This document shows, one piece after another, positions 6,871 to 9,457 of a stretch of 12,814 bases of DNA. The translations under genes were made by a program, and so were the position numbers. Numbering within the stretch: position 1 is the first letter of the stretch; each line of letters begins with the position of its first letter. Origin of the DNA: Pseudomonas sp. (GTDB lineage Bacteria; Pseudomonadota; Gammaproteobacteria; Pseudomonadales; Pseudomonadaceae); NCBI GenBank assembly GCA_003527165.1, contig DPSI01000558.1, positions 1 through 12,814 of the forward strand, given 5' to 3'. Below the pieces are notes generated by a model, which saw nothing but the letters and a program-made list of their open reading frames with translations, did not search any database and was not told the DNA's origin.

Positions 6871-7269
6871 CTACCAGCGCTTCTCAATATTGCGCATCGA
6901 TACCTGGCTGTTCAGCGTCCAGAAATCATAGAGCACGCCCACGAAGAACAGCCCGCCGGTGCACAGATAGATCAGGCCAGTAATCCATTTGCCCTGATAC
7001 ATCCGGTGCACGCCGAAGACCCCCAAGAAGGTCAGTAGGATCCAGGCCACGGTGTAGTCGATTGGCCCCGGCTGGAAGCGCATGTCGGCCTCCCGATCCA
7101 TCGATGGAATAAGAAACAGATCGATGATCCAGCCAACGAAGAACAGGCCGAGGGTGAAGAACCAGATGGTGCCAGTGATCGGCTTGCCGTAATAGAAGCG
7201 GTGGGAACCGAGGAATCCGAAAATCCACAGGAGATAGCCGATCAGGGTGCTATGGGTGTTCTGCCGCAT
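6871..7269 (-). CDS. Small membrane protein with two tandem TM2 domains
   Basis: A 132-residue predicted inner-membrane protein. Two TM2-type units are visible, about 11-53 and 75-117, each a hydrophobic helix, an HR turn (H23/R24 and H88/R89), a GK-IT-G segment, then a second helix with the identical hexapeptide GLFFVG (41-46 and 106-111); the offset is 65 residues throughout, so the protein has about four membrane spans. The cellular role of bacterial TM2 proteins is unknown to me. I chose the ATG at 7269-7267 because GAGG lies 5 bases upstream and the product then starts just before the first TM2 unit. The frame is open up to an ATG at 7401, but that extension is poorly conserved-looking and would overlap the divergent gene's LexA box. 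Converges on pyrC'. Confidence 0.85.
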   Translation of the reverse strand: MRQNTHSTLIGYLLWIFGFLGSHRFYYGKPITGTIWFFTLGLFFVGWIIDLFLIPSMDREADMRFQPGPIDYTVAWILLTFLGVFGVHRMYQGKWITGLIYLCTGGLFFVGVLYDFWTLNSQVSMRNIEKRW

Positions 7270-7358
7270 CTGAGCCTCGCTGTCTGGTTTGGGTAACGCG
7301 TCCTTGAGCTTATCTGATTTGGACGAGTTGACGCTTCCGCCGAGCGGGCCTTGTTCCA

Positions 7359-7385
7359 TTGACTGACCGTGATACTGTATATAAA
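7359..7385 (+). promoter_or_regulatory. Possible sigma-70 promoter for the radical SAM operon
   Basis: TTGACT (7359-7364, five of six to TTGACA) and TATAAA (7380-7385, five of six to TATAAT) are separated by 15 bp, shorter than the ideal 17. The -10 falls inside the LexA box, as expected for an SOS promoter. A perfect TATAAT at 7391-7396 is an alternative -10 but has no good -35 and would place the transcript start almost at the coding start. Confidence 0.45.
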
Positions 7386-7392
7386 ACCAGTA
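7373..7392. promoter_or_regulatory. LexA-binding site (SOS box)
   Basis: TACTGTATATAAAACCAGTA agrees with the E. coli consensus TACTGTATATATATACAGTA at 17 of 20 positions and keeps the invariant CTG-N10-CAG core (7375-7390). It overlaps the putative -10 and ends 14 bases before the chosen start of the radical SAM gene, an ideal place for repression. It lies in the 137-bp divergent spacer, so the TM2 gene might also respond. Predicted from sequence only. Confidence 0.78.
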
Positions 7393-7406
7393 TAATGGCA
7401 ATCTCC

Positions 7407-8618
7407 ATGCAACTGATCGAAAAACTCAGCGTCCTTGCCGACGCCGCTAAATATGACGTGTCATGTGCCAGCAGCGGCGCGCCAAAGCGCAGCTCCAAAG
7501 GCCGCAGCGGACTGGGCGCCACGGACGGCATGGGCATCTGCCACAGCTTCACGCCGGACGGCCGCTGTGTGGCCCTACTCAAGGTGCTGCTGACCAACTT
7601 CTGCCTGTACGACTGCCAGTACTGCGTCAATCGGCGTTCCAGTGACGTGCCCCGGGCACGCTTTACTCCGGAAGAAGTGGTCACGCTGACCCTCGACTTC
7701 TACCGCCGTAACTGCATCAGCGGCCTGTTTCTCAGCTCCGGCATTATTCGCTCGGCCGACTACACCATGGAACAGCTGATCCGCGTGGCCAAGCAGTTAC
7801 GCGAGGAGCACGAGTTTCGCGGTTACATCCATCTGAAAACCATCCCGGATGCAGATCCGATGCTGATCGCCGAAGCTGGCCGTTACGCTGACCGCCTCAG
7901 CGTCAACATCGAACTGCCGACCGGCTCCAGCCTGATCCGCCTCGCGCCGGAGAAACAGGTCGTGACCATCAAGCAGGCCATGCAGGTCATTTGCGAGGGT
8001 GAGACCGAAGCACAGGCGGAGAAACGGGCGCCGCGCTTCGCGCCGGCGGGCCAGAGCACCCAGATGATCGTTGGCGCCGATGCGACGGACGACAGCACCA
8101 TTCTCCGCACCGCTCAGTCGCTGTATGGTGACTACCGTCTGCGCCGCGTCTATTACTCGGCATTCAGCCCCATTCCGCACAGCCCTAAGACGGTACCCTT
8201 CGAAGCACCGCCACTGCTGCGCGAACATCGCCTGTATCAGGCCGACTTCTTGATGCGCGGTTACGGCTTTCGGGCCGGCGAATTGCTCGCTGGCCCAGGA
8301 AACCTGCCGCTGGATATCGACCCCAAGCTTGCCTGGGCGCTGTCCAACCGCGAGCAGTTTCCGGTCGACCTGAATCGGGCCGACCCATCACTGATCGCGC
8401 GCATCCCCGGGATTGGAATCCTCAGTGCCAAGCGCCTGGTCGCTCTGCGCCGGCAGAAGCGCATCCGCTTCGAAGACCTGGCACGCCTTCGCTGCTCGCT
8501 GGAAAAAGCCAAACCCTTCGTCATTACCCAGGACTACCGACCGAGCCTGGCCTACCAGGAGTCTAGTGCCTTGCGACGACAACTCAGCGAGGGGCCTGTG
8601 CAGATGGGGTTGTGGTGA
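7407..8618 (+). CDS. Putative DNA modification/repair radical SAM protein
   Basis: A 403-residue member of the radical SAM family annotated as 'putative DNA modification/repair' (TIGR03916 type); substrate and reaction are unknown. The [4Fe-4S]/SAM motif is C66-x3-C70-x2-C73 (NFCLYDCQYC). Further Cys at 20, 45 and 54 upstream of it could bind another metal or cluster. A radical SAM barrel spans about 55-290. The C-terminal part (about 320-365) reads as a helix-hairpin-helix DNA-binding motif (DLNRADPSLIARIPGIGILS), which supports a nucleic-acid substrate. I chose the ATG at 7407 because MQLIEKLSVLADAAKYDVSC resembles the family N-terminus; the ATG at 7395 would add four residues, and neither has a clear Shine-Dalgarno. 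Preceded by a LexA box and overlapping its partner gene downstream. Confidence 0.9.
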   Translation: MQLIEKLSVLADAAKYDVSCASSGAPKRSSKGRSGLGATDGMGICHSFTPDGRCVALLKVLLTNFCLYDCQYCVNRRSSDVPRARFTPEEVVTLTLDFYRRNCISGLFLSSGIIRSADYTMEQLIRVAKQLREEHEFRGYIHLKTIPDADPMLIAEAGRYADRLSVNIELPTGSSLIRLAPEKQVVTIKQAMQVICEGETEAQAEKRAPRFAPAGQSTQMIVGADATDDSTILRTAQSLYGDYRLRRVYYSAFSPIPHSPKTVPFEAPPLLREHRLYQADFLMRGYGFRAGELLAGPGNLPLDIDPKLAWALSNREQFPVDLNRADPSLIARIPGIGILSAKRLVALRRQKRIRFEDLARLRCSLEKAKPFVITQDYRPSLAYQESSALRRQLSEGPVQMGLW

Positions 8619-9457
8619 TGCGTCAGGTGCGCTTTGACAGCAGTTTCGATGGCTGGCGCGCCGCCGCGCGTGAGCTGCTCCGCGACGGGATCGCGCCGCA
8701 TCAGGTGGAATGGCTCGGCGGCAGTGATGCGGGTGGATTGTTCGACGAGCCCGATGCGCTCAAACCGATCGAATCGATTGAGCCGGCACCACCGGTACGC
8801 ATTCCGAGGCAGCTGATCGTCGAACTGGAAAGCGCGGCGCGCTTTCGCACCGGCGACCGCTGGAGCCTGCTGTATCGCATTCTCTGGCGTGTCGCCCAGG
8901 GCGATCCGACGGCCAGACTGGCCGGCGACGTCGATGGCAGCAAACTGCATGCGCGGATCAAGGCCGTACGCCGCGAAGCGCACCATATGCACGCTTTTCT
9001 ACGCTTCAGCCCAACGGACAGCGACAGCGTCCCGCACTATGTGGCCTGGTTCGAGCCTGCGCACGACATCTTGATCAGCGCGGCGCCGCACTTCGCCGAG
9101 CGAATGGGCCTGCATTCCTGGCTGATCGCGACGCCAGATGATGCAGTCTTTTGGGATGGGCAGGGCATGCACTACGCCAGTCCTTGTCCGCCCGCCTGGC
9201 ATCAACTGGCGCAAACCGCGCAAGATCCCGGCGCGGAACTGTGGAAGACCTATTACGAGAGCACCTTCAACCCGGCGCGACTGAACCGCGAGGTGATGCA
9301 AAGCAATCTGCCGGTGCGCTTCTGGAAGAACCTGCCCGAAGGGCAGCTGATACCGCAATTGCTGAGCCGTGCTCGCGCTGGAGCCCAACGTGACGGCCAG
9401 GCCGAACGCGTCGCCAAGCGGGCGGGCAAGCGCATCGGCCTGCCAAGGCAGACCTGA
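8618..9457 (+). CDS. TIGR03915/DUF4130 family putative DNA metabolism protein
   Basis: A 279-residue protein of the family found next to the radical SAM protein above; in other genomes this domain is fused to a UdgX-type uracil-DNA glycosylase domain. No glycosylase domain is present here. Visible family features are a basic, His-rich helix REAHHMHAFLRF (119-130), FEPAHDILISAAPHF (145-159), a WKTYYESTFNPARLN stretch (209-223) and RFWKNLPEGQLIPQLL (234-249), then a Lys/Arg-rich tail (253-277). The ATG at 8618 overlaps the upstream stop (TGATG); two in-frame GTG codons just before it (8612, 8615) are less likely starts. The function is not known; co-expression with the radical SAM protein under LexA is inferred. 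Its stop codon abuts the pilU stop codon on the other strand with no gap. Confidence 0.85.
   Translation: MRQVRFDSSFDGWRAAARELLRDGIAPHQVEWLGGSDAGGLFDEPDALKPIESIEPAPPVRIPRQLIVELESAARFRTGDRWSLLYRILWRVAQGDPTARLAGDVDGSKLHARIKAVRREAHHMHAFLRFSPTDSDSVPHYVAWFEPAHDILISAAPHFAERMGLHSWLIATPDDAVFWDGQGMHYASPCPPAWHQLAQTAQDPGAELWKTYYESTFNPARLNREVMQSNLPVRFWKNLPEGQLIPQLLSRARAGAQRDGQAERVAKRAGKRIGLPRQT

Follow-up and report, generated by a model that had tools for sequence, protein, structure and literature searches.

A radical SAM and DUF4130 gene pair behind an SOS box in Pseudomonas, a putative damage-induced DNA repair unit with UdgX as an optional module

Introduction

Pairs of genes encoding a radical S-adenosylmethionine (SAM) protein and a DUF4130 protein, and their link to the SOS response, are already known from NCBIfam, PMC3765255, and PMC8565304. 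NCBIfam names the first family, TIGR03916, a "putative DNA modification/repair radical SAM protein", and a protein of this name is listed in a table of PMC8307549. A 2013 figure legend in PMC3765255 describes DUF4130 as a predicted mutagenesis-related enzyme associated with a SplB-like radical SAM protein and a uracil-DNA glycosylase (UDG) "which might modify thymines". In its passages on the subject, PMC8565304 reports a LexA-regulated UDG-COG4277 operon in Bacteroidetes, with Verrucomicrobia and Alphaproteobacteria cited, and interprets COG1573-COG4277 as a putative system for base excision repair. The same passages describe SplB as LexA-regulated in several species, and PMC8307549 states that SplB repairs DNA. 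The present analysis concerns such a pair, hereafter the cassette, in a 12,814-nucleotide stretch of Pseudomonas sp. DNA (contig DPSI01000558.1, assembly GCA_003527165.1), hereafter the window. TIGR03916 is taken here to be the same as COG4277; the source name of one relative (P0114), "predicted DNA-binding helix-hairpin-helix protein", fits this equation.

The cassette is best read as a LexA-repressed, DNA-damage-induced two-protein repair unit that would act on damaged DNA, a reading with a probability of roughly 0.6. A reading of the window from its letters alone (the sequence-only reading) had called the system uncharacterised. This description holds for the chemistry, as a full-text literature search, with most subscription journals outside it, returned no functional study of the cassette reaction, but it does not hold for the gene pair and its SOS link, which are published. 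The conservation of three LexA motifs with controls, the dispensability of the UdgX-type UDG, an invariant Cys/His set, and the fold leads were not found in print.

Probable SOS control in the window and its source genome

Two overlapping sites precede the cassette.

7373..7392, no strand: SOS (LexA) box TACTGTATATAAAACCAGTA, 17/20 against the gammaproteobacterial consensus
7369..7396, + strand: promoter-like site GTGATA-16-TATAAT, 10/12, a consensus match only, with the SOS box filling its spacer

The near-consensus box described in the sequence-only reading is confirmed: TACTGTATATAAAACCAGTA and TACTGTATATATATACAGTA are identical at 17 of 20 positions, while the runner-up 20-mer in the window reaches 11. 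Six sites in the source genome (3.4 Mb, 71.6% complete) lie within three mismatches of CTGTATATATATACAG, versus one for a reversed control pattern. The five others precede recA, recN, imuA, a PA0069-family radical SAM gene, and a YccA-like gene; the first four calls are each above their NCBIfam cut-offs and the YccA-like call is below. Four of these five sites therefore belong to SOS-type genes. The bacterium thus carries two different radical SAM families with SOS boxes, the cassette and the PA0069-family gene (L231, G000:C109:2329-5329, site 1501). The three-mismatch SOS-like site of the YccA-like gene lies about 10 bases before its likely start (L234, G000:C279:150-3150, site 1501).

The promoter-like site is weak taken alone, since two sites of such quality are seen in 3.1 kb where 0.9 are expected. 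Another weak promoter-like site, at 7401-7374 on the strand of the divergent TM2-domain gene, overlaps the SOS box, and LexA could therefore touch both directions.

LexA motifs in relatives

Conservation was scored in two sets of loci. Nine of 276 gammaproteobacterial genomes and 85 of 348 Pseudomonadota genomes contain a TIGR03916 match above the cut-off, giving 89 distinct loci. The second set comes from a Bacillota-led alignment query of named genomes, which yielded 590 confirmed stretches; the best 80, whose titles name mostly Bacillota, make up the set, so that phyla beyond Bacillota are hardly sampled in it; Bacteroidetes, which may differ, fall outside the sampled sets. Ten duplicates of longer stretches (L001-L004, L006, L007, L009, and L020-L022) were removed before counting, and L110-L114 were excluded from the 80-locus set. 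The 150 bases ahead of the conserved start were scored for each motif, with the upstreams of other genes at the same loci as controls. The three motifs used agree with those in Table 1 of PMC9578287.

The gamma/beta motif reaches at least 14/20 at 27 of 34 loci (window included) versus 0 of 210 control upstreams. The alphaproteobacterial direct repeat GTTC-N7-GTTC, or its complement, is present at 55/55 loci (a count without L115; 56 with it) versus 0/270 controls; allowing one mismatch, 20/270 controls match, hence the relaxed form is not discriminating. The Bacillota motif GAAC-N4-GTTC is found exactly at 26 of the 80 loci versus 2 of 459 controls, and with up to one mismatch at 52/80 versus 9/459. 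Random-window controls give 0/602 (gamma/beta), 2/983 (alpha), and 1/1475 (Bacillota). Because several loci are near relatives, these counts are not independent events; four loci share one identical SOS box.

The sequence-only reading had staked part of its case on a LexA box conserved in relatives, and boxes are found in three groups of relatives under three motifs. The difference between these motifs suggests that SOS control was retained while LexA specificity changed, as if selection had kept the cassette under SOS control throughout.

Seven of the 34 gamma/beta loci fall under the threshold, among them L081 (13), L052 (13), and L104 (10). Another of the seven, L100, is from another family of the same order, presumably Moraxellaceae. 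Acinetobacter is described as having no LexA (PMC3978071), and an Acinetobacter plasmid copy of the cassette (L113) has no SOS box either. At the other three of the seven, loci of genus g148 (L057, L061, and L108), a private inverted repeat, TCTCAT-CCA-ATGAGA, replaces the SOS box. Its exact copies number one per genome in the three g148 genomes, always at the cassette, and one genome has a single further site with one mismatch. With one exact copy per genome, the repeat lacks the appearance of a regulon motif, and it was rejected as a new g148 LexA motif.

The radical SAM protein

The first gene encodes the following features.

7407..8618, + strand: radical SAM gene, start ATG, 403 amino acids, NCBIfam match to TIGR03916 (rSAM_link_UDG)
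7464..7568, + strand: extra conserved residues C20 (7464-7466), C45 (7539-7541), H46 (7542-7544), and C54 (7566-7568), in 174/175 sequences
7602..7625, + strand: radical SAM cluster motif CxxxCxxC (C66, C70, and C73, numbered from ATG 7407), in 175/175 sequences
8361..8486 (about), + strand: C-terminal helix-hairpin-helix (HhH; HHH_3), 27.1 bits, cut-off 27

The TIGR03916 score is 540.7 bits against a cut-off of 343.5. PF04055 lies just below its cut-off (26.8 vs 29.5), and the protein has both features of the radical SAM superfamily, the CxxxCxxC motif and the SAM barrel. The starts previously assigned to the two genes, TTG 7359 and GTG 8612, give way to ATG 7407 and ATG 8618, which are likelier, the latter with a TGATG overlap. 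ATG 7407 was picked from homologue lengths, and an in-frame ATG at 7395 is also possible. Of the motifs named in the sequence-only reading, C-x3-C-x2-C is borne out by C66, C70, and C73, kept in every sequence compared, and the C-terminal HhH stands with HHH_3 barely above the cut-off; in a sequence search of solved structures, the HhH region matches a ComEA-related chain (E 4e-4). The C20/C45/H46/C54 set is proposed to form an auxiliary metal or Fe-S site.

The sequence search of solved structures gives only generic radical SAM and HhH matches for the cassette proteins. Structural matches of the barrel include LipA, HydE, BioB, RlmN, and MiaB, with the lipoyl synthase/HydE type closest, and a solved spore photoproduct lyase (SPL) is not among the 50 structural matches listed. 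These matches, together with the extra Cys/His set, lend some color to a damage-induced RNA or protein modification, in which the radical SAM protein would modify tRNA or a protein partner within the SOS response. However, the HhH and the UdgX domain of many relatives point to DNA, and the fold itself reveals no substrate; such a modification is considered quite unlikely.

A scan of the cassette against an anti-phage library gives no match, and a scan against PHROGs gives a weak generic radical SAM match only. A radical SAM paralogue on a Gemmatirosa plasmid (L112:3501-4646) keeps the barrel motif and the HhH and has neither the extra Cys/His set nor a nearby DUF4130 gene.

The DUF4130 partner

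8618..9457, + strand: DUF4130 gene, start ATG, 279 amino acids, NCBIfam (TIGR03915) and PF13566 matches

The second protein scores 205.2 bits against a TIGR03915 cut-off of 112.25 and also matches PF13566. Its start shares one base with the stop of the radical SAM gene (TGATG, 8616-8620), in keeping with the overlapping two-gene operon proposed earlier. The pairing is close to constant. DUF4130 lies downstream of the radical SAM gene on the same strand at 89/89 Pseudomonadota loci (87 within 0.6 kb and two at about 3 kb) and, within 1.3 kb, at 78 of the 80 loci of the Bacillota-led set, where a Pseudomonadota-based profile missed nine loci and a wider profile missed two (L118 and L119). In these two Oscillospiraceae loci, the radical SAM protein sits in a far longer frame (717 codons), with no DUF4130 in about 1.2 and 2.7 kb downstream, respectively.

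The most conserved residues of DUF4130 are Arg, Glu, Phe, Pro, and Trp. The domain weakly resembles RecJ/Cdc45, and the DHH metal-binding motif is not present in the window protein. Its assignment to DHH/RecJ by sequence was rejected: hhalign of 88 DUF4130 sequences against RecJ-like (12), NrnA-like (6), and long DHHA1 (2) sequences from 11 genomes gives probabilities of 0.9, 0.3, and 0.4%, versus 0.3% for a radical SAM control. A sequence search of solved structures with DUF4130 returns one chance-level match (E 0.92), to a designed protein.

UdgX as an optional module

The claim that DUF4130 is fused to UdgX-type domains in other genomes is upheld at 62 of the 89 Pseudomonadota loci by scan, and two more fusions (L055 and L059) lie just beyond the sequence examined. 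The UdgX signatures, taken from the motif description in PMC10359453, are frequent among 63 UDG frames: GEQPGD occurs in 60 and the R-x-H ending of the R-loop in 60. The window protein consists of the DUF4130 domain only, with no UDG domain and no GEQPG or KRRIH motif, and TIGR03914 has no match in the source genome at its 71.6% completeness. No UDG was found with a two-sequence profile at the 80 Bacillota-led loci, 75 of which cover at least 2.5 kb downstream.

Twenty-two genomes were tested for the 26 loci with DUF4130 only, one of which (L054) ends near a contig end. UdgX is below the cut-off in 20 of them, the other two being the L055 and L059 fusions; three of the 20 have weaker UDG-superfamily matches of 110-154 bits. 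UdgX thus counts as an optional module, and its dispensability makes UDG-based excision unlikely as the core function. The UDG-less loci, many with an SOS box, keep the radical SAM-DUF4130 pair, and those in Pseudomonas and Bacillota argue that the core function resides in these two proteins.

These counts bear directly on the published interpretation, which treats the cassette as accessory to uracil excision repair, handling uracil, abasic sites, and UdgX-DNA adducts arising from SOS replication. The base excision label in PMC8565304 speaks for it, as do the UDG fusions, which number no fewer than 64 among the 89 Pseudomonadota loci and carry UdgX motifs in nearly every case. The window and the Bacillota-led loci, in which no UDG was matched, the 20 genomes described above, and the persistence of the pair, often with an SOS box, where UDG is missing speak against it. 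The core function is probably not UDG base excision, and the accessory role is regarded as improbable, though less so than the RNA or protein modification considered above.

Alternatively, the radical SAM protein could turn a damaged or normal DNA pyrimidine into a base that is uracil or resembles it, and so tag it for excision or mutagenic copying, as would suit the fused UdgX and the thymine modification mooted in the PMC3765255 legend. UDG-less loci nevertheless exist, and no mutagenic polymerase is among the recurring neighbor clusters listed (at least 4 loci). Nor is any chemistry known to us for such a step, and little weight is given to it.

In one Pseudomonadota fusion (G593, L079), the UDG scores 118 bits against a cut-off of 190 and has neither UdgX motif; perhaps Pseudomonas is in the course of losing this module.

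Genomic site and neighbors

The nearest matches of the cassette proteins are from Pseudomonas and Stutzerimonas. The cassette lies on the + strand between pilU and a TM2-domain gene, with dihydroorotase further out on the TM2 side.

6871-7401 region, minus strand: TM2-domain gene, divergent from the cassette

Thirty pilU loci were recovered from 39 genomes of the same family. The cassette or its DUF4130 end adjoins pilU in nine (window counted), the TM2 gene takes its place in 11, dihydroorotase alone is beside pilU in one, and the remaining nine have no cassette, TM2 gene, or dihydroorotase within the approximately 1.5 kb examined. The presence of the cassette is thus variable at one genomic site, which the sequence-only reading had described as a gap in an otherwise conserved core region.

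Besides DUF4130, the clearest recurring neighbor is an XPD/DinG-type helicase, found at 11 loci by BLAST cluster and 12/80 by motif. It lies downstream of the cassette, and the copy at L174:2916-5273, the single one scanned against Pfam and NCBIfam, has an N-terminal PD-(D/E)XK nuclease. The other neighbor clusters listed, each from at least four loci, seem to comprise core genes shared by related genomes, an HTH repressor (4 loci), an ABC ATPase, and reverse-strand shadows.

Proposed mechanism

The DNA itself shows a promoter-like site overlain by an SOS box that is conserved in relatives, two genes that are constantly paired, and the domains they encode; the following scheme builds on these features. 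LexA would repress the cassette, and DNA damage would induce both proteins. The radical SAM protein may bind DNA via its C-terminal HhH and form a 5′-deoxyadenosyl radical at the [4Fe-4S] cluster of CxxxCxxC. The radical would take a hydrogen from a damaged nucleotide, which would then either revert or take a form on which ordinary repair could finish the work. The C20/C45/H46/C54 site could serve electron transfer or substrate binding, while DUF4130, as the obligate partner, would hold the lesion-bearing strand through its conserved Arg, Glu, and aromatic residues. Where UdgX is fused, as in most Pseudomonadota loci seen, it is probably an add-on that traps uracil or abasic intermediates by covalent capture; the window version would operate without it. 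The radical chemistry on DNA and the likeness to SPL put forward in the sequence-only reading are inferred, as is a DNA-damage phenotype.

Because the same SOS-linked pair is present in gut Clostridia, a UV photoproduct is presumably not the sole substrate; alkylation, cross-links, or abasic-site adducts would be better candidates than a UV photoproduct alone. A bolder version, to be held only tentatively, is a multi-phylum radical direct repair unrelated to SPL. In it, SOS would induce a radical SAM enzyme that carries an auxiliary metal cluster and acts on damaged DNA, DUF4130 would hold the strand as a catalytically dead subunit of RecJ/Cdc45 type, and fused UdgX would trap intermediates in many Pseudomonadota.

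Significance

Among radical SAM enzymes, only SPL is, to our knowledge, well established in DNA repair. Three different LexA motifs place a second, wider radical SAM family in the SOS response. The cassette is catalogued and widespread, and its novelty lies in its details, not in its kind. As the simplest systems, the UDG-less versions from Stutzerimonas and Clostridia are where to look for the reaction, and with two small proteins the lesion is directly testable.

Comparison with known systems

Like the window radical SAM protein, SplB is a LexA-linked radical SAM enzyme. However, the window protein matched TIGR03916 alone in NCBIfam, a search in which the library's SplB models were not checked, and the extra Cys/His set, the HhH, and the DUF4130 partner are not known to be features of SplB. 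The PA0069-family radical SAM protein shares a near-consensus SOS box in the same genome but belongs to a separate family (NF033668) on another contig. Lipoyl synthase, HydE, and biotin synthase have the barrel folds nearest to that of the window protein. The N-terminal motif of lipoyl synthase is CX4CX5C, whereas the extra cysteines of the window protein (20, 45, and 54) are spaced C-x24-C-x8-C. DUF4130 differs from RecJ/Cdc45 (DHH-DHHA1) in having no DHH motif and no profile-profile support. UdgX, with GEQPGD and R-x-H, is fused to DUF4130 in many relatives and absent in the window. The operon of PMC8565304 is described in its passages there solely as a UDG repair system, whereas the window version is UDG-less. 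With the TIGR03916/TIGR03915 cassette, the window shares two proteins above the curated cut-offs, neighboring genes on the same strand, and the SOS link; it differs in having no UdgX, a component that is frequent in this cassette but does not define it.
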